From: Solidesulfovibrio sp.
GTDB lineage: Bacteria; Desulfobacterota; Desulfovibrionia; Desulfovibrionales; Desulfovibrionaceae
Assembly: GCF_029978005.1 (NCBI RefSeq)
Contig: NZ_JARKOZ010000044.1
Span: 62,001 to 126,000, forward strand
DNA: 64,000 nucleotides
Direction: 5' to 3'
The translations under genes and the position numbers were made by a program. The notes below the pieces were generated by a model, which saw nothing but the letters and a program-made list of their open reading frames with translations, was not told the DNA's origin and did not search any database. Below, one piece after another: positions 48,285 through 60,225 of the stretch. Numbering within the stretch: position 1 is the stretch's first letter; every line of letters begins with the position of its first letter.

Positions 48285-49693
48285 GGATTCTCGTCTGCTG
48301 CGCCGATTGGGGCATCCCCCTGGGGGGAAGCGCGGGGTCTTCGGTGCATCTGCGTTGCCTGGCCAAGGCCCTGGCCGGGTTGGGGCACGAGGTGCGGCTG
48401 GTGGTCAGCAACGCCGGCGGAGCCGCGAAGCTGTCCATGCCCGTGGAAGTCGTTGCCGAGGAGCGGATCTGGCCAGCCGTGCACGCGCTCATCGAGCGCG
48501 TCCGGGGCCGGGCAGGGGAAGCCGCTGTCTCGACGGTAGCGGCTTCGGCGGCCGCAGGCCCGGCCGCGGCCGATGCGGCCAGCCAAGGGGCCCGGAACGT
48601 CTCCCGCCGCCCCGCCTCCGGGGGGTCCTGGAAATCGCGCCTCTACTACGAGACGTTGCCGCAGCTTGCGGACCAGGCCCAGGAGTGCCTGTTTCACCCC
48701 ATTCGGTTCGGCCGGGCCGTATCCCGGATCATGGCTTGTTTCCAGCCTGACGCCGTGTACGAGCGCTACGCCCTGTGCCAGGCGGGTGCGTCGCGGGCGG
48801 TGCGCGCGGCCGGGGGGGGCAGGGTGCCGCATGTCCTGGAGGTCAACGCCTCGTTGGCCGACGAGCGGTTCGGCCCGGCGGCGTCCGCCCGGGCCCTGGG
48901 CTGGTGGTCCGCCAGGGAGGAGGGGCGTTTGTGGCGCAGGGCCGACCGGGTCGTATGCGTTTCCGAGAAGCTGGGTCAACAGGCCGTTTCCCTTGGGGCC
49001 GATCCGGCCCGCGTTCGGGTGATGCCAAACGGCGTGGACTTGGAGGCGTTTCGTCCGGATCGGCCCAAGGGGAGGCTTCGCCGGCTGCTCGGCGTGGATG
49101 GGCGGACGATTTTGATCGGCTGGCTCGGGGCGCTTTCCCCGGGCAGGGGCGGCGAGGAGTTTCTCCGCGTGCTGGCCCAGGCGTTGCCCCTTTGCGCCGG
49201 GGCGGCGGGTGTCGTCATCGGCGGCGGTCCCCTGGAGGCGGCCTGTCGTCGTCTGGCCGGGGCGCTTGGCATCGCCGAGCGGGTGCGTTTCGTCGGCCCG
49301 GTGGATCACGACCGGATTCCGGACCTGCTCGTGGACGTGGATATCGCCGTGTCCTGCTATCCGGGACGCAAGGATTTTTACTTCTCGCCCATGAAGGTGG
49401 CCGAGTATCTGGCCTGCGGCCTGCCCGTGGTTTCCGGGCGGACCGGAAGCGGCCGCGAGGCGGTCGCCGACGGCGTGAACGGTCTGCTGGTGGATCCGGG
49501 CGTGGCCGGGGCCTGGGGGCATGCCCTGGCGAGGCTTTGCCGCGATCCGGACCTGCGGGCGCGCCTTGGCCGTGCGGCCAGGCAGTCCGCTCTCGCCGGC
49601 CCCACCTGGATCGGCAACGCCAGAGTGGTGGAGCAGGAAATCATGCGCTGCCGGGATGAACTCGCGCAGGTGGGGAGGAGGGCATGTCCATGA
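48281..49693 (+). CDS. Glycosyltransferase family 4
   Basis: A 470-residue GT4 with ATGA coupling to the previous gene. The N-terminal glycine loop is WGIPLGGSAGSSVHLRCLAKAL. A non-conserved Ala/Gly-rich insert sits at about residues 75-120 (VSTVAASAAAGPAAADAAS), explaining the extra length. The C-terminal domain has GWLGALSPGRGGEEFLRVLAQ, VIGGGPLEAACRRL and SPMKVAEYLACGLPVVSGRTGSGREAV. The donor sugar is unknown. Confidence 0.87.
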   Translation: MRILVCCADWGIPLGGSAGSSVHLRCLAKALAGLGHEVRLVVSNAGGAAKLSMPVEVVAEERIWPAVHALIERVRGRAGEAAVSTVAASAAAGPAAADAASQGARNVSRRPASGGSWKSRLYYETLPQLADQAQECLFHPIRFGRAVSRIMACFQPDAVYERYALCQAGASRAVRAAGGGRVPHVLEVNASLADERFGPAASARALGWWSAREEGRLWRRADRVVCVSEKLGQQAVSLGADPARVRVMPNGVDLEAFRPDRPKGRLRRLLGVDGRTILIGWLGALSPGRGGEEFLRVLAQALPLCAGAAGVVIGGGPLEAACRRLAGALGIAERVRFVGPVDHDRIPDLLVDVDIAVSCYPGRKDFYFSPMKVAEYLACGLPVVSGRTGSGREAVADGVNGLLVDPGVAGAWGHALARLCRDPDLRARLGRAARQSALAGPTWIGNARVVEQEIMRCRDELAQVGRRACP

Positions 49694-51291
49694 TGGAGCG
49701 CTACGTCGCCGTGCTGCCGCAGGCCGGGGATCGGGCAAACGGGCGGGGACCGTCCTTGACGGACCGCCTGAAGGGGCTTTGCGGGCGGAAACGGCTCGTC
49801 TTCCCGGCCCTTGGCGCGGACCCGGCCCGGTTGGCCGGGGTATTGTTCGAAAGCGGCGGCGCGCCGGGACGGATCACCGTGAACGGCCGGCCGGCAGACG
49901 TGCGCTGGCGTCGGGGAAGGCGTCTGCTTTTGGGGCCGGAACCGTTTTGCCGCGACGAAAACCTTTTGTCCGTCAGCCGGGGAGCCGGCGACGTCGTGCT
50001 TTTCCCGGTGGTGGAAGCGCTGGCGGACATCGGGAAGGCGGGCCTTGCGCCGGGATGGCCCTGGCGTCTGCAAACCCTGGATGGCGCGGATTTGGGGCCG
50101 GCCTCGGTCCCCGCTCCCGCGCGCGTGCCGGCCGGCGACGTCCTTTCGGGCCTTGCCCGGGGACTTTTGGCCATGATCGCCGAAAACGGGGATGTCTGGT
50201 CCTTTTATGACCTGACCGAGAAGACGTTGCGGCTGGCCGGTTGGCGCTGGGACACGGGGATCGTGCTGGAAGCCCTGTCGGCCGCCGCCAGCCGCAGGAT
50301 CGTCCCGGGCCTCGATGCCGCGGCCCGGGCGGTGGGGGATCGATTGCTGGCCACGCGGCTGACCCATCCGAACTGCCTGGGCGGCTTTCCGGAATGGACG
50401 GACCCGCGCTATCGCGAATCGCCGCATGGGGTCAGCCAATGGGTTGTCCCGTTCAATGCCGCCTTCATCGCCTCCGGCCTGAAGCGGCTGGGCAAATACA
50501 CCGGCGTGCCCGTCTATACGCTGGCCGCCAGGGACGCCCTCCTGCTGGCGGCCTCCTCGGGGCTTACGCCATCGGGCGGGATTTCCGGCTATTACTTCGA
50601 GCAGTCCCAGACCTGGCGGTATCTGGGCCAGATAAACGATTCAGGCATCCTGGGCCGCGGCCTGGCCCTGTTTCCCGGGGAATCCTGGTCGGCCGAGGCG
50701 TCCTTTCGCGCGGCCGGGTATATCCTCAAGAAGGCGGCCCGCCCCGATGGGCATATCGGCCGGGCCTGGTGGGATCCGGTCGGCGCCTGCAAATCCGGGG
50801 ACCCTCTTTTTCCGGAGTGGAAAAGCCATCCCCGGCGGGTGGTGCCAAAGGTTTTTCTGCGCGGCCAGGCCTGGGTCCTCATGGGCCTGGCCGGCGCTTT
50901 GCGTCTCGGGGCCCCGGGCCTGATCGAACGGGGGGCGCGGCGGCTCGCCGACTTCATCGTCGCCTCGCAGCAGGCCGACGGATCCTGGTTGTACAGCCAG
51001 GGACAGCCCGCACTCGGGGCCTGCGCCAAAACGACCGCCGCCCTGGCCCTGGCCCTGGTCGAATGGTCCCGGGCAACGCGGGACACACGGCCCCTGCCGG
51101 CGGTGGCCAGGGCGCTTTGCTACCTGGACGCCTGCCGGCGGCCGTCGGATGTCCCGCCCGAATTGGCCGGACTTGCCGTGGACGCCTCGAGCGAAGGCTG
51201 CATCATCTATTTTCGGGACCGGCCCGTGGTGTGCGCCTACACGGCCGCCCTGGAGTTGCTGGCCCGCTTGGCCGTGGAGGAGGGGACATGA
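49684..51291 (+). CDS. Predicted (alpha/alpha) barrel glycan-active protein
   Basis: A 535-residue protein of uncertain function. After a poorly conserved N-terminal ~155 residues it shows repeated helical pairs with aromatic and acidic residues: MIAENGDVWSFYDLT, WRWDTGIVLEALSAA, ISGYYFEQSQTWRYLGQ, GHIGRAWWDPVGACKSGD, KVFLRGQAWVLMGLAGAL and IVASQQADGSWLYSQGQ. This pattern is that of (alpha/alpha)6 barrels such as GH88/GH105 hydrolases, glucuronyl hydrolases or terpene-cyclase-like proteins. There is no signal peptide. GGAGGAGG precedes the ATG, and the gene overlaps its neighbours by 10 bases and by ATGA. It may act on a lipid-linked or cytosolic glycan. The exact family is not recognised. 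Confidence 0.7.
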   Translation: MSMMERYVAVLPQAGDRANGRGPSLTDRLKGLCGRKRLVFPALGADPARLAGVLFESGGAPGRITVNGRPADVRWRRGRRLLLGPEPFCRDENLLSVSRGAGDVVLFPVVEALADIGKAGLAPGWPWRLQTLDGADLGPASVPAPARVPAGDVLSGLARGLLAMIAENGDVWSFYDLTEKTLRLAGWRWDTGIVLEALSAAASRRIVPGLDAAARAVGDRLLATRLTHPNCLGGFPEWTDPRYRESPHGVSQWVVPFNAAFIASGLKRLGKYTGVPVYTLAARDALLLAASSGLTPSGGISGYYFEQSQTWRYLGQINDSGILGRGLALFPGESWSAEASFRAAGYILKKAARPDGHIGRAWWDPVGACKSGDPLFPEWKSHPRRVVPKVFLRGQAWVLMGLAGALRLGAPGLIERGARRLADFIVASQQADGSWLYSQGQPALGACAKTTAALALALVEWSRATRDTRPLPAVARALCYLDACRRPSDVPPELAGLAVDASSEGCIIYFRDRPVVCAYTAALELLARLAVEEGT

Positions 51292-54104
51292 GAATCCTCC
51301 ATGCTTGCAAGCATTTCTATCCCCGGGTCACGGGTGTGACCAGCCATGTGGAGCATCTTTCCCGGGAGCAGGCGTTGTCGGGCCATCATGTGGCCGTGGC
51401 CACCTGGAACGAGGACGGCCAGGGACATTCTCCCGAGGGGTTGACGGTCCTGCGGGCCGATCCCGGGGCTCAGGACCAATTGATCGGGCTCATGGAGGCC
51501 TTTGATCCCGACGTCATCCACGCCCACTCGATCTGGGACGTGTCCCACGCCGCCGCCCGCGCCGCCCGGCGCTTGGGGCGGGCCTACGTGATCACCACCC
51601 ATGGCACGTGCCATCTCCTGGCGGCCGCCCACGCCGCCGCGTCCCTGAGGCAAAGGCTGCATTGGAATGTGTGGCGTCGGCGCGTGTATTGGCTCGACCT
51701 GTTGCGGGGCGCCGACGTGGTCATCGCCCTCAATGCCCTCGAGGAAACCCATGCGCTGACGGCCGGGGTCGCCATCGATCGGATCCTGCGCATCCCCAAT
51801 GCCGTGGACGCGGAGCTTTTCCACCCCCCGCGCGGCGGAGAGGACTGGCGCAGGAATGCCGACGCGCAGTGGTTCACGGTGCTGTTCGTCGGATCCATGG
51901 AGGAGCATAAGGGGATTTTCGACGTCCTCGAAGCGGCCGCGGCCCTGCGGACATGCGTTCCGTTCGCGCGTTGGCTGCTTTGCGGCGACGGCCCCGACCT
52001 GGAACGTGCCTTTCTGACGGCGGACGCCAGCGGCGTGACGGATGTCGTCGTTTTCCTGGGCAGGGTGGAGCGGGCCAGGATCCCGGAGCTGTACCAGCTT
52101 GCCGATGCGGTGGTGGCGCCTTCGCACATGGAGGCCTTTTCCACGGTGCTGCTGGAAGGCATGGCCAGCGGCCTGCCGTGCGTTGGCACCAACGTGGGCG
52201 GCACGCCCTGCATCATCGACCATGACGAGACCGGGTTCCTCATCGCCCGGGGCGACTCCCGGGCTTTGGCGGACAAGGTCGGCTGGCTGGCGCGCCATCC
52301 CCGGAAGGCTGCGGCCATGGGGCAGGCCGGACGGGAGAAGGTCAGACGCAATTTCACCTGGCCCCAGGTGGCCGCCCGCATCGAAGGGGCCTACCGCTTG
52401 GCCCTGGGCCTCCTGCTGTGCTGCCTGATCCTTTGCCGATCGGCCCTGGCCGCCGATGTCGCGGCGGTGGACATGTTGACCATGCTCGATCCGCTGACCG
52501 GCCACGACATGGACGTCCCGGCCAGGGCGTGGCGGCAGGCCAATCCCGTCTGGAACGGGTCGGCGATAACGCTGCGCCTTGCCCGGGGGGAGACGGGGGC
52601 CTTTCAACTGGTGCTGTTGCCCGAGGCCGGGGAGCGCCTGGAGGGCATCCGCATCGTGGTGGAATTGTCCGAACAGGTTCCCTGGACGGCCTACCGCGCC
52701 TGGCATATCTGGAACGTTCCCGAGGTGGCCGTGCCCATGGGGGACGACAAGCCTTCCTTCGATATTCCGAGCCGGCTGCCCGTCGAGCGCCCCCCCACCG
52801 CCGCGTTTCGGGCCTTCCCTATCGTCGTCGAGCTGTCCGCGCCCCGGGGGCTCGAGTGCGACCGGGTGCACGGCCAGGTCCGCGTCACCTGGAAGGGCGG
52901 CGGTGCGACCCTGCCGTTGGCGCTGACGGTGCTGCCCCTGACCTTGCCGGTGCACCCAGCCTTCCTCGTGGAGATGAATTCCTACGGCGACTACCTGCGG
53001 TTGCTGCCGGCCGATCGGGAAACATTCTTGTCCATCCACCGGCTGTTCCGGCATTTCCGCTGCACCTTCACCCTGGTTCCCTACCGGCAGGCCGGCGACC
53101 CGGTCCTGGACTTTCTGACCCCGACCCTGGCGGCGGACGGGAGCCCGGATTTCACGGCCTTCGATGCCGCTTTGGCGGGTCTTTTTACCGGCGCGGCCTT
53201 TCCGGACGGTCAGCCGCTTTCCCATTTTCTCCTGCCTTTCCAGGCGCAGTGGCCCGTTCCCCTGAAGATGAACGCTTCGCGCTTCGCGGCGCGAAACGTC
53301 GAGTTGCGACAGGCCGTTGCCAGGCATATCGCGATCAAGGACTGGCGGGCCACCCGGTTTCAGGAATTTCACAACGAAAACCCGGAACATGGAGCCAAGG
53401 TGCCCTGGCGGCTGGACGAGCCGGTCACGCAACGGGATTTGGCCGGTCACGACCGCTTCCTGGGCTTTCTCGGCCTGGCCTGCGGGGCCGGCGACGGGGC
53501 CTGCCCCCTGCACTATCGCATCGATATATCCGACTGGCGTCCTCTTCGCAGGTGGCTGCAACGGCTGGCCGTCAAGGGGGCGAGGGATTGGTCCGTATCG
53601 GCCGATCCCGCCTTTCTGGACAAGGAAGCCGTGCGTTTTTTCCGTGAATCGGGCGGAGACTGGCTGTTGGCCTACGGCGAACTGCCGGGATTCCGGAGCA
53701 AGGACCGGCCCACGCCCTGGGTGCGCTTCCCGGTGTTCCTGGCGCGATTTTCCACCTTGGGCTTGGACGGCTTCGCGCAATGGCAGGTGGACTGTTGGCG
53801 GGACAAATCACTCGAAGGCATTCCCGATGCGGCCGTCCCTCTGTTGTATTCAAATGCCGCCGGAGCCCGGGATCTGATCTGGCCCGGGGCGTACCTGGGA
53901 CTTGACGGCCCCTTGCCCTCCTTGCGGCTTTTCGCCCTTCGTGAGGGCCTCAACCTGATCGATTACGCGTCCTTGGCGCGGAAATGCCGGCCGGAGATGG
54001 CCCGTGTCCTCTGCAGCGCGCTTGCCGGCGTGTCCGACGCCGCGTCGGCCTATGCCCTCAAATCGAGGCTCGCCGCAGTGGCGTCGGGAAGGTGCGGCGA
54101 ATGA
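51288..54104 (+). CDS. Fusion: GT4 glycosyltransferase, signal/TM segment, DUF4091 (GH123-like) domain
   Basis: A 938-residue fusion. Residues 1-370 are a complete GT4 (HACKHFYPRVTGVTSHVEHL, GSMEEHKGIFDVLEAAAAL, SHMEAFSTVLLEGMASGLPC) ending at its usual last helix. Residues 371-390 are LALGLLLCCLILCRSALAA, which has the form of a signal peptide or membrane anchor. Residues ~391-938 resemble DUF4091/GH123-like proteins (GLDGFAQWQVDCW, GLDGPLPSLRLFALREGLN). A TTG at 52398 with AAGGGG 8 bases upstream could start a separate exported DUF4091 protein. As one chain, the GT would be cytoplasmic and the GH-like part periplasmic, which is topologically reasonable. The start at 51288 overlaps the previous gene as ATGA. 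Confidence 0.8.
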   Translation: MRILHACKHFYPRVTGVTSHVEHLSREQALSGHHVAVATWNEDGQGHSPEGLTVLRADPGAQDQLIGLMEAFDPDVIHAHSIWDVSHAAARAARRLGRAYVITTHGTCHLLAAAHAAASLRQRLHWNVWRRRVYWLDLLRGADVVIALNALEETHALTAGVAIDRILRIPNAVDAELFHPPRGGEDWRRNADAQWFTVLFVGSMEEHKGIFDVLEAAAALRTCVPFARWLLCGDGPDLERAFLTADASGVTDVVVFLGRVERARIPELYQLADAVVAPSHMEAFSTVLLEGMASGLPCVGTNVGGTPCIIDHDETGFLIARGDSRALADKVGWLARHPRKAAAMGQAGREKVRRNFTWPQVAARIEGAYRLALGLLLCCLILCRSALAADVAAVDMLTMLDPLTGHDMDVPARAWRQANPVWNGSAITLRLARGETGAFQLVLLPEAGERLEGIRIVVELSEQVPWTAYRAWHIWNVPEVAVPMGDDKPSFDIPSRLPVERPPTAAFRAFPIVVELSAPRGLECDRVHGQVRVTWKGGGATLPLALTVLPLTLPVHPAFLVEMNSYGDYLRLLPADRETFLSIHRLFRHFRCTFTLVPYRQAGDPVLDFLTPTLAADGSPDFTAFDAALAGLFTGAAFPDGQPLSHFLLPFQAQWPVPLKMNASRFAARNVELRQAVARHIAIKDWRATRFQEFHNENPEHGAKVPWRLDEPVTQRDLAGHDRFLGFLGLACGAGDGACPLHYRIDISDWRPLRRWLQRLAVKGARDWSVSADPAFLDKEAVRFFRESGGDWLLAYGELPGFRSKDRPTPWVRFPVFLARFSTLGLDGFAQWQVDCWRDKSLEGIPDAAVPLLYSNAAGARDLIWPGAYLGLDGPLPSLRLFALREGLNLIDYASLARKCRPEMARVLCSALAGVSDAASAYALKSRLAAVASGRCGE

Positions 54105-56132: not shown

Positions 56133-57331
56133 TGGCCACCGCATCCGACAACCCCGTCCCGCGACGGCTTTCCCGCGAGGGGGAGGCCGGGGTCTTGCCC
56201 GAAGTCGACGGGCTTCGCCTGGCGCATTTGATTCTCGACATGGGGTTTGGCGGCGCGGAACGGTTGGCCCAGGACGTCGCCATCGCCCTGCAAGAGCGGG
56301 GCGCGCGGTGCCATGTCGTCTGTTTCGACGCCATTTCCGGCAATACGGCCCCCCTGGCGCGCCATGGAATTCCGGTCGAACTCATTCAAAGGAAGCAGAT
56401 CGCCTTCGACAGCCGGGCCTGTTTGCGCCTGCTGCGGCGTTTGAAGGCCCTTGGCGTGCAGCTCCTCCATGCCCACGACCTGTCCAGCCTGTCCTATGCC
56501 GTGGCCGCGGGGCTGCTCTTGGGCATTCCCGTGGTCATGACCGAGCACAGCCGCCACTATATCGAGGCGCGCCGGATCAGGCGGCTGGAGAAACGCCTGC
56601 TTTGCCTGGGGGTGCGCCGATTGGTCGCGGTCTCGCCGGAACTGGCCCGGGCGAGCGTCGAGCGGGACCATGTCGCGCCTGGCAAGGTCGCGGTGATCGA
56701 GAACGGCGTGGACGTGGAACGCTACGCCCGGGCGCAGGGCCGCGCTTTTCGCGAGGAGCTCGCCCTGGGGCCCGGCGAGGCCCTGGTGGGCATGGTCGGC
56801 CGGCTGGAGGCGATCAAGGGGCCCGACGTGTTGTTGGAGGCGTTCACCGCCCTGGCCGGGCGCTTTCCCGGGGCCAGGCTGGCATATGTCGGCGAAGGGG
56901 GGCTGGGGGAGGCGCTTCGCGCCCGAAGCCAGGCTCTGGGGTTGGCCGCGCGGGTGCGCTTTCTGGGGAGCCGCTCGGACATCCCCCAGGTCATGTCCGG
57001 CCTGGACATCCTCGTCCTGCCGTCCCTTTCCGAGGGGCTGCCCCTTGCCCTGCTGGAAGGCATGGCCGCGGGCCGGGCCGTGGTGGCCACGGCGGTGGGG
57101 CGGGTCCCGGGCATCGTGCGGCCTGCCTGGGAGGGCGAAAACGGAAGGCTCGTGCCCCCCGGCGATGTCCGGGCCCTCGCCCGGACCCTCATGACCCTGC
57201 TCGGGGATGCGCCGTTGCGGGCGAGGCTTGGGCGGGCAGCCCAGGATTTTGTCGCCAGGCGCTACCGCCTGCAGGATACGTTTCGAAACTACCAGACGGT
57301 CTACGCCCAGGCCTTGGCCGGGAGAACCTGA
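56129..57331 (+). CDS. Glycosyltransferase family 4
   Basis: A 400-residue GT4. N-terminal LILDMGFGGAERLAQDVAIAL, then HAHDLSSLSYAVAAG and EHSRHYIEARR (acceptor domain). C-terminal GRLEAIKGPDVLLEAFTAL, YVGEGGLGEALR and SLSEGLPLALLEGMAAGRAVVATAVGRVPGIV. The first ~30 residues before the fold are unconserved; a later start is possible, but the ATGA overlap at 56129 supports this one. It is in the exosortase-type GT branch that also occurs in other EPS loci; the sugar is unknown. Confidence 0.88.
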   Translation: MMATASDNPVPRRLSREGEAGVLPEVDGLRLAHLILDMGFGGAERLAQDVAIALQERGARCHVVCFDAISGNTAPLARHGIPVELIQRKQIAFDSRACLRLLRRLKALGVQLLHAHDLSSLSYAVAAGLLLGIPVVMTEHSRHYIEARRIRRLEKRLLCLGVRRLVAVSPELARASVERDHVAPGKVAVIENGVDVERYARAQGRAFREELALGPGEALVGMVGRLEAIKGPDVLLEAFTALAGRFPGARLAYVGEGGLGEALRARSQALGLAARVRFLGSRSDIPQVMSGLDILVLPSLSEGLPLALLEGMAAGRAVVATAVGRVPGIVRPAWEGENGRLVPPGDVRALARTLMTLLGDAPLRARLGRAAQDFVARRYRLQDTFRNYQTVYAQALAGRT

Positions 57332-57333
57332 AC

Positions 57334-60225
57334 ATGCCTGCGCCGCCTCCGCCCGATCCCCGCGAACTGGCGCGTTCCGCGTTGGATTGGCTGCGCCGTC
57401 TCCAGGTCCGGGAGGACGGCTATGACCAGGGCGGCATTGCCGATCCCCTGGACGGGCGGGTGGCCGGGGAGCACTACGCCACCACGCATTTCGCCTGGTG
57501 CTGCGCCCTCCAGCACCAGGCCCGGCCGGACGGGGAGTTGCTCGAGGCGGCCCTGAGCGCCATGGCCTTCCACCTGCGCACTTCCCCGGACGAGTACGCG
57601 CCGGGGACATGGTCCTACCACTGGGATTTCAACAACCTGGCCTCCGTGGAGACATACTTGCTGTTGCGCGGGGAGGCGCCGGGCGCCTTGGGCGAGGCGT
57701 GGCTTGCGAGCCTGCGCGGTTGGAAGACCAATGTCCACTGGGCGGTGAACTGGGTGGCCATGCGGGCCTTGGCCCATTTCAGGCGGTTCGGGTTGTTCGG
57801 CGACGACTCGGATCGCCTCGCGGCGGGCGAGTGGCTGGCCTATGTGCTGGCGTCGCAACTGCCTGACGGAGGCATCGAGGACGTTCGGGGCAAGAGCCTG
57901 CCCAGCCAGTACCATGCCTACGTCGCCTGTCTGCTGCACCGCCTGTTGCCGACCCATCCCGGCGTGTCGCGGGCCGTCGTCCTGTCGGCGCGCTGGCTTC
58001 TGGCCATCACCGGCCCGGACGGCGAGAGCAACGCCCTGGGACGCGGCCAGGGGCAGGTCTTCGGCTATGCCTGCGCGGTCTACCTGTTTCGGGCCGCGGT
58101 GGGGCTGGACCCGCAGCATGCCCCCCAGTACCGCTTCGCGGCCCGGAAGACCTTGGAACGGTTGCGTCGGTTCCAGACAGGGGAAGGATGGTGGCCGCTG
58201 GTGTGCAACCGGCTTCCCGTCAAACGTCGGGCAGGCTGGTACGACTATCACCATTTGAGCGTGTACAACGCCTTCGCCGCCGTCTGGCTGACCCTCGCCG
58301 GGGCCTTGCCGATGCTGCCGGGACCGGCGGAGCCCCCCCCGTCGGGCGTCGCCTGGCTCCGGGATTCGGGCCTGCTGGCGGTGCGGCGCAAGCGGTGGTT
58401 CGCCCTCTTCGGCGCGGGCCGCGACGGGGCCGGGTACGCCACCGAGGCGGGCATCACCCCGCACGATCTCCAATGGGAAGGCCGGACGCTTTTCCGCTAT
58501 CCTCTGGGGCCGGGGCCGGGGAAGTACGGAATCCTGGCCCGGGACAGCGGACAGGAGGCCAACTGCTGGTCGCCGCTCTGGAGGGTGGGGGACGGGCCCT
58601 GGCGGGCGCCGACGGGCGCGCAAGGGACCTTGGAACCGGGACCGGGGCGCAACCGCTGGAGGTTGCGCCTGTCGCGGGATGGCGCGCTGTGGCAGCGGGA
58701 ACTTGTGCTGGGGCGGCGTTTCCTTGAGGCCAGGGACAGCCTGGATTTGCCGGCAAACCCTGGCGATTTGCCGGACGTGACCATCCGGACCCACAATTTC
58801 GGCTGGGCGGCCGACAGCCCGTGGCGGCTGGGACCGACGTATGCGCGGGATACCCTCGACGGCACGGTTCTGCGGCTCTGGGGCGGCGAGCCCCTGGCCG
58901 AGGCCGGGACGCTGGAAACCGCCTGGGGCGAAACCCGCGTCCTGGCGGCCACGGGAAACGGCGCGTCCGTTCGCTGCGGCTGGCGTCTGCGCCAGGGACC
59001 GGCCCCCGTCGGGGGACGGCTGCCCGGCATCGTCTGTTTGAGTTGGGACCCGTGGTCCACGCTTTGGAAACGCAAGCAACGGCTGCTCTTCGAGCTGGCC
59101 CGCAGTGGCCGGTCGCCGCGTACCCTGTACGTGGAGCCGAGCATCCCCCTGACCGGGATTCTCGAAGACGCCTGGAGCCTTGTGCGGCCGCAAGGGGAGC
59201 GCTCCCGCCGCTGTCTGCGCGGGAGGCCCGTGGATATTGGCCATGGCTTGCATCTGGCCTCTCCCTTGTGGCCTTGGCCGGGGCGACGCACCTTTCCGGG
59301 GCTGGGCCGGGCCAACCACCGGTCCTGGCTGGCCCAGCTGCGCCGCTTCGTCGACCGGGTCGGGTTCCCCGACGGCTACGTGCTGTGGCTGTACCATCCG
59401 GCCCAGCGCGACGCCTTGGACGTCCTGGGCGACGACGCGGAACTGGTGGTCTTCGATTGGACCGACGATTGGGTCCAGGCCCTGCCTGAGGAGCAGGCCG
59501 CCAGGGACGGGCGGCTCCTTGAAGACCGGCAGCGGGAAATGCTGTGCCGGGCGGATGTGGTCTTCGCCGTGTCCAAAGCCCTCGTCAAACGGGCCGAGGC
59601 CTGGTGCCCGCAAGTCCATTACCTGCCGAACGCCACGGATCCGGAGGTGTTTCGGCCCTGGGACCCGGGCCTGTCCCCCCACCCCCTGCTGGGCCGCCGG
59701 CCGGCCCTGGTCTATCTTTCCCAGATCAACGAACGCCTGGATGTGGAACTGCTCCGGGCGATCGCCCTGGCCAGGCCCCAGTGGGCCGTGATCATGGCCG
59801 GTCCGTTGGTATGCGGCGAAGCCGTGGTCGCCCCGCTGCAAGGGCTTGCCAACGTGCTATGGACCGGCCCGTTGCCGTATCAGGAGGCGGCGGCATTGGC
59901 CGCCCAGGCCGATGTCTGTCTTTTGCCCCACCGCGAGGACGCCCTGACCGGCGTGCTCGATCCCATCAAGATCTACGACTACCTGGCCACGGGACGCCCC
60001 ATCGTGTCCACGGCGGTGGCCATGCACCCGGATGTGGCGCCGTTGGTGCGGGTGGCCAGCGGCCCGCGGGCCTTCATCGAGGCCGTGGAATCGGCCCTGG
60101 CCGAACCGCCTTCGGCGGCCGAACGCCGGGCCCGGGCGGCCAAGGCCCATACCTGGGCCGCCCGGGCCCGGCAAGCCGCCGACGTGCTCGAGAGGTTTTT
60201 CCCCGAGGGGGCGCCATGCGCATAG
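57334..60225 (+). CDS. Fusion: alpha-barrel/beta-sandwich glycan-lyase-like module with C-terminal glycosyltransferase
   Basis: A 963-residue fusion with no stop or good internal start between its parts. Residues ~1-330 are an alpha-helical toroid (ALDWLRRLQVREDG, HYATTHFAWCCALQHQ, KTNVHWAVNWVAMRAL, YDYHHLSVYNAFAAVWL). Residues ~345-560 are a beta-rich part (SGLLAVRRKRWFALFGAGRD, YATEAGITPHDLQWEG). The order recalls heparinase II/III or chondroitin-AC lyase-like proteins. From ~563 a GT-B glycosyltransferase begins (GIVCLSWDPWSTLWKRKQ) and includes LYHPAQRDAL, VVFDWTDDWVQALPE, YLPNATDPEVF and GVLDPIKIYDYLATGRPIVS. There is no signal peptide, so both parts appear cytosolic. It starts 2 bases after the previous gene. 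Confidence 0.78.
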   Translation: MPAPPPPDPRELARSALDWLRRLQVREDGYDQGGIADPLDGRVAGEHYATTHFAWCCALQHQARPDGELLEAALSAMAFHLRTSPDEYAPGTWSYHWDFNNLASVETYLLLRGEAPGALGEAWLASLRGWKTNVHWAVNWVAMRALAHFRRFGLFGDDSDRLAAGEWLAYVLASQLPDGGIEDVRGKSLPSQYHAYVACLLHRLLPTHPGVSRAVVLSARWLLAITGPDGESNALGRGQGQVFGYACAVYLFRAAVGLDPQHAPQYRFAARKTLERLRRFQTGEGWWPLVCNRLPVKRRAGWYDYHHLSVYNAFAAVWLTLAGALPMLPGPAEPPPSGVAWLRDSGLLAVRRKRWFALFGAGRDGAGYATEAGITPHDLQWEGRTLFRYPLGPGPGKYGILARDSGQEANCWSPLWRVGDGPWRAPTGAQGTLEPGPGRNRWRLRLSRDGALWQRELVLGRRFLEARDSLDLPANPGDLPDVTIRTHNFGWAADSPWRLGPTYARDTLDGTVLRLWGGEPLAEAGTLETAWGETRVLAATGNGASVRCGWRLRQGPAPVGGRLPGIVCLSWDPWSTLWKRKQRLLFELARSGRSPRTLYVEPSIPLTGILEDAWSLVRPQGERSRRCLRGRPVDIGHGLHLASPLWPWPGRRTFPGLGRANHRSWLAQLRRFVDRVGFPDGYVLWLYHPAQRDALDVLGDDAELVVFDWTDDWVQALPEEQAARDGRLLEDRQREMLCRADVVFAVSKALVKRAEAWCPQVHYLPNATDPEVFRPWDPGLSPHPLLGRRPALVYLSQINERLDVELLRAIALARPQWAVIMAGPLVCGEAVVAPLQGLANVLWTGPLPYQEAAALAAQADVCLLPHREDALTGVLDPIKIYDYLATGRPIVSTAVAMHPDVAPLVRVASGPRAFIEAVESALAEPPSAAERRARAAKAHTWAARARQAADVLERFFPEGAPCA

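Follow-up and report, generated by a model that had tools for sequence, protein, structure and literature searches.

A glycosyltransferase fused in frame to a GH123-like domain through a predicted internal signal sequence in an exopolysaccharide cluster of Solidesulfovibrio

In a 64,000-nucleotide stretch of DNA from a sulfate-reducing Solidesulfovibrio sp., hereafter the window, a single open frame encodes a glycosyltransferase (GT), a short hydrophobic segment and a domain resembling glycoside hydrolases (GH). Such an arrangement could represent one protein that spans the inner membrane, one gene that yields two products, or two genes run together by mutation or sequencing error. In order to decide between these readings, we analyzed the domains, the junction and the homologous loci. 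In what follows G000 is the genome of the window, G004, G010 and G013 belong to the same genus, and G565 and G538 belong to another. The features of the gene are:

51288..54104, + strand: whole fusion gene (open frame; conserved in G004, G010 and G013)
51288..52397, + strand: GT4 glycosyltransferase domain, residues 1-370 (Pfam; alignment with the separate GTs of G565 and G538)
52384..52400, + strand: AAGGGG and TTG, the proposed internal start (absent from the three other fusions)
52398..52436, + strand: hydrophobic core of the predicted internal signal sequence, residues 371-383, LALGLLLCCLILC (alignment, hydrophobicity)
52437..52451, + strand: c-region RSALA with a signal peptidase I-like A-x-A, predicted cut after residue 388 (alanine conservation)
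52452..54101, + strand: GH123-like (DUF4091-type) glycosidase domain, residues 389-938, predicted to be periplasmic (profiles, AlphaFold model, fold search)
53415..53420, + strand: DE dyad D710-E711 (motif PWRLDEP; D322-E323 of the domain; alignment of homologues)

When the open reading frames of the window were read, 51288-54104 was found to be uninterrupted over 938 codons plus a stop, which bears out the earlier note's description of a GT4 that runs without a stop into a hydrophobic segment and a GH-like domain. The frame starts at the ATG at 51288, has AGGAGG upstream and overlaps the stop of the preceding gene by ATGA (51288-51291); at the other end, its stop (54102-54104) shares an ATGA (54101-54104) with the start of the following gene. 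An ATGA-type gene junction is absent between the GT and GH halves in the window sequence. The gene directly upstream (49684-51291), which encodes 535 amino acids and has zero Pfam matches, is kept with the cluster in four genomes of the genus and partly in G565 and G538. A comparison with plasmid records gave no match.

Residues 1-370 matched the Pfam families Glycos_transf_1 (PF00534; E 7e-37, 127 bits against a cut-off of 26.4) and Glyco_transf_4 (PF13439; E 1.5e-19, 71.1 bits against a cut-off of 28.5). In the alignment with G565 and G538, the domain ends at residue 370, the very point where the separate orthologous GT genes stop. The E-x7-E motif of retaining GT-B enzymes is present, with E282 and E290 invariant in four fusions and also kept in the two separate GTs. 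Judged by its sequence, this half is a complete GT4 transferase.

The C-terminal half fell under every Pfam threshold, those of DUF4091 and GH123_cat (PF13320) included, so that a Pfam-only annotation would name just the glycosyltransferase. Remote homologues of this half reached 17-19 bits on GH123_cat against a cut-off of 23.1, with only the most divergent of them (L032) passing, and we therefore refer to the domain as GH123-like rather than GH123. Profile searches were more informative: the first matched a solved beta-N-acetylgalactosaminidase (8k2f) at E 3e-14, and the second reached E 3e-37 to solved GH123 and related beta-N-acetylgalactosaminidases, with 5l7v, 5fqe and others also matched. 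An AlphaFold model of the GH domain alone, based on ten homologues, had a pLDDT of 86 and a pTM of 0.89; a model of the whole fusion on four sequences was poor (pLDDT 52) and was set aside. Foldseek placed the GH model in the GH123 superfamily (E 1e-16 to 1e-22, probability 1.00, TM-score 0.52-0.66), the next unrelated fold following at E 1.8e-7, and its overall fold fits a beta-sandwich, a barrel and a DUF4091 region. The D710-E711 dyad is invariant in the alignment of ten homologues, and an Asp-Glu dyad is catalytic in GH123 and related enzymes (PMC11087588). By the profile matches to solved enzymes and the model, the earlier DUF4091/GH123-like assignment was right.

It had also been proposed that relatives be searched for the same fusion or for split genes, and both were found. 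In the 14 genomes of the genus that were compared, the GT part was matched at high similarity in four, which are also the four with the GH part, in every case within one open frame; the other ten yielded no close homologues of either part. The three other fusions are 71, 60 and 52% identical to the window protein, and insertions and deletions at the junction come in whole codons. In G013 the GH half changes frame near a contig end (L018:19176-19511), through either sequencing error or decay. A search of the family (288 genomes) returned only two further close homologues, in G565 and G538, which have the same gene order and in which GT and GH are separate genes. There, the second gene overlaps the GT gene by 20 nt in a different frame. 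The separate GTs end ...LEGVYAQVIS or ...LEDVYAQVSR, and the second genes open with MRRLSADVRRCLTLAGLALAVLLSV... or MRRFPVDIKRYAGVCFLLALCLGW..., each with a classic N-terminal signal peptide of its own. The fusions run from ...IEGAYR directly into LALGLLL...; they thus lack the GT tail and its stop as well as the ATG and charged n-region of the second gene, and the last helix of the GT sits where the second gene would start and encode its signal n-region. Given these syntenic, overlapping and differently framed genes with an N-terminal signal peptide, the segment embedded in the fusions would be a former signal peptide.

Within the phylum, more distant homologues occur as standalone proteins of approximately 970-990 amino acids with N-termini that look, by eye, like signal peptides; some lie near genes that by eye resemble those for glycosyltransferases, asparagine synthases or exosortases. 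In a tree, the fused and separate forms were joined with full support against the standalone forms, with the branching order among fused and separate forms left unsettled. The fused state is probably derived, since separate genes are more widely distributed. One standalone homologue (L031:7747-10775, in G053) is split into two frames and adjoins asparagine-synthase-like and glycosyltransferase-like frames, as judged by eye, with a similar neighbourhood in L030 (G266).

What, then, does the junction segment do? Residues 371-383 form the sole strong hydrophobic segment in the fusion protein. The hydrophobic core measures 13 residues in G000 and G004, where it is flanked by two arginines, and approximately 15-17 in G010 and G013; a core of this size has the length of a signal peptide and is shorter than a typical membrane anchor. 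It is followed by R-S/P-A-x-A-A or C-P-A-L-A-A in the four fusions. Of the 50 alignment columns over residues 371-420, the four fusions agree fully in just seven, three of which hold the alanines at -3, -1 and +1 of an AxA|A site for signal peptidase I (hypergeometric probability 0.0018, or approximately 0.017 for -3 and -1 alone), a weak test in that four related sequences are treated as independent and, with so few of them, only suggestive. An N-in/C-out orientation requires positive charge before the segment, and the net charge of the preceding 20 residues is +4 in three species and -1 in G013. A search of the genome for the signal peptidase I family gave two matches. From these sequence features, cleavage of the fusion by signal peptidase I appears probable.

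The best explanation is, in our moderately confident view, a single polypeptide that keeps its GT inside, places its GH domain in the periplasm and is probably cut by signal peptidase. The earlier note's one-protein reading, with GT inside and a GH-like part outside, gains support from the conservation of the fusion in four species. That conservation as a single chain would also suit an uncut, bifunctional inner-membrane protein, in which the segment is a permanent single-pass anchor and synthesis and trimming are physically coupled. Hydrophobicity summed across a 19-residue stretch is close to zero or negative in G000, G010 and G013, which is compatible with membrane insertion, and the 15-17-residue segment of G010 and G013 could also remain as an anchor. 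However, a 13-residue core between two arginines is short for that purpose, the AxA|A is invariant amid variable residues although a permanent anchor does not need it, and the segment matches the signal peptide of the separate orthologues. We consider an uncut anchor possible, and appreciably less probable than cleavage.

According to the earlier note, a second, secreted protein might instead start internally, at the TTG at 52398-52400 behind AAGGGG at 52384-52389; both lie at the positions given. Since G565 carries GAGGGGG at the same place, AAGGGG is meaningful in position, sitting with the TTG at the position of the ribosome-binding site in the separate genes of G565 and G538. In the other three fusions, however, the TTG is CTG, CTG and CAG, and AAGGGG is replaced by GAGCAG or GAGGCC. 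We therefore reject this start as a conserved mechanism. A GTG at residue 361 fares no better, being GTT in G004 and GTC in G013. The ATG of M344 is the sole start codon upstream of the segment that is common to all four fusions and has AAGG upstream in G000, but it lies within a stretch conserved in the GT. No start with a ribosome-binding site common to the four fusions was found, M344 included, nor was there a peak of synonymous conservation at their junction to hint at a hidden start. The fusions also lack the start codon and charged signal n-region that the separate genes have, which speaks against a separately started GH made alongside the fusion from any of these codons; we regard such a product as improbable. 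Two products from one gene may nevertheless arise, by signal-peptidase cleavage instead of internal initiation.

Loss of a stop between two normal genes by local mutation or sequencing error has next to no chance of being correct and is rejected: loci with separate genes do exist in another genus, a finding that the earlier note would have taken to refute a genuine fusion, but they do not imply a local mutation, given that the fusion has been kept across diverged sequences, with a stop-free junction in four independently sequenced species. The fusion is thus genuine and conserved, and it arranges known domain families in a new way.

The fusion lies in an exopolysaccharide cluster of the exosortase/XrtA type with many GTs. 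Its neighbours include GT4s, two genes of the polysaccharide deacetylase family, a GNAT-domain gene and a Wzt-type ABC ATPase, which by eye adjoins a permease-like frame. At 15087-36363 the window holds an exosortase/XrtA (PEP-CTERM)-type system with PrsK, PrsR, an exosortase, an ATPase, an outer-membrane protein and a deacetylase. The exosortase subfamily TIGR02602, as well as TIGR02916, TIGR02915 and TIGR03006, scored over cut-off in the window, and the exosortase fell just under the XrtA-specific cut-off (193 vs 208 bits). A second long fusion, at 57328-60222, joins an N-terminal part of approximately 545 amino acids without a stop to a C-terminal glycosyltransferase-like domain. As judged from the open frame and the junction sequences, it is open throughout in G000, G004 and G010 and also in G565 and G538, and would for this last reason be older than the GT4-GH123 fusion.

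Taking the cleaved single polypeptide as our preferred reading, we infer its topology, cleavage, direction of change, substrates and function as follows. The GT4 domain would stay in the cytoplasm, and the internal signal sequence, placed right after the last helix of the GT, would send the GH123-like domain across the inner membrane. Signal peptidase I would probably cut after A388, leaving at the inner membrane a GT of approximately 42 kDa that ends in a hydrophobic tail, and releasing a hydrolase of approximately 61 kDa in equal amount. The GT would add a sugar in the synthesis of an exported exopolysaccharide. The hydrolase, with its DE dyad, may act on the polymer in the periplasm, trimming it or clearing it away, perhaps by cutting N-acetylhexosamine linkages; GalNAc is the best-known substrate of the GH123 superfamily. 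The division of labor between a GT that builds and a periplasmic GH that trims or clears would hold by analogy. As to origin, two overlapping genes most likely lost the GT stop together with the second gene's start and signal n-region. There is perhaps an even chance that the whole constitutes a biosynthetic polyprotein, i.e., a cytoplasmic GT and a periplasmic glycosidase made at a fixed 1:1 ratio and cleaved at an internal signal, so that synthesis and trimming are coupled at translation.

The novelty resides in the architecture and the probable processing; the chemistry is not new. The loci probably show both the earlier and the later state: one genus has two overlapping genes, and the other has a fixed fusion, where the final helix of a cytoplasmic enzyme takes over the role of a signal peptide's beginning. 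Should cleavage be borne out, this would be a bacterial example of one chain giving two enzymes for opposite sides of a membrane. The reading also gives a GH123-like enzyme a testable role in exopolysaccharide synthesis instead of degradation.

Our literature search for GT-GH fusions and for bacterial polyproteins carrying internal signals found nothing usable, and the comparison is therefore with systems that share single traits. The fusion resembles the GT4s of XrtA/PEP-CTERM clusters (e.g., TIGR04063 and TIGR03088) in domain family and cluster setting, but scores far under their equivalog cut-offs and carries a putatively secreted hydrolase at its C-terminus. In Bradyrhizobium, fbcH encodes a cytochrome b/c1 precursor, one gene giving two proteins through an internal signal sequence that is cut by signal peptidase. 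The likeness to fbcH lies in this layout of a bacterial gene; the proteins themselves are unrelated to these respiratory cytochromes, and cleavage of the GT-GH fusion is only predicted. The Pel and PNAG loci, according to two studies (PMC9894940, PMC9384988), have periplasmic hydrolases in synthase-dependent systems; they share with our locus a glycoside hydrolase encoded inside a polymer biosynthesis locus, whereas their hydrolases belong to other families and the GH here is the tail of a GT near a Wzt-type ABC ATPase. Finally, the GH half is like GH123 and related DUF4091 beta-N-acetylgalactosaminidases (NgaCa, BvGH123 and NgaDssm; PMC11087588) in its C-terminal fold, profile similarity and DE dyad. 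Unlike these enzymes, it shares approximately 14% identity with solved members, scores under the Pfam cut-off, is fused behind a GT within an exopolysaccharide synthesis cluster, and is known here from its sequence and a model.
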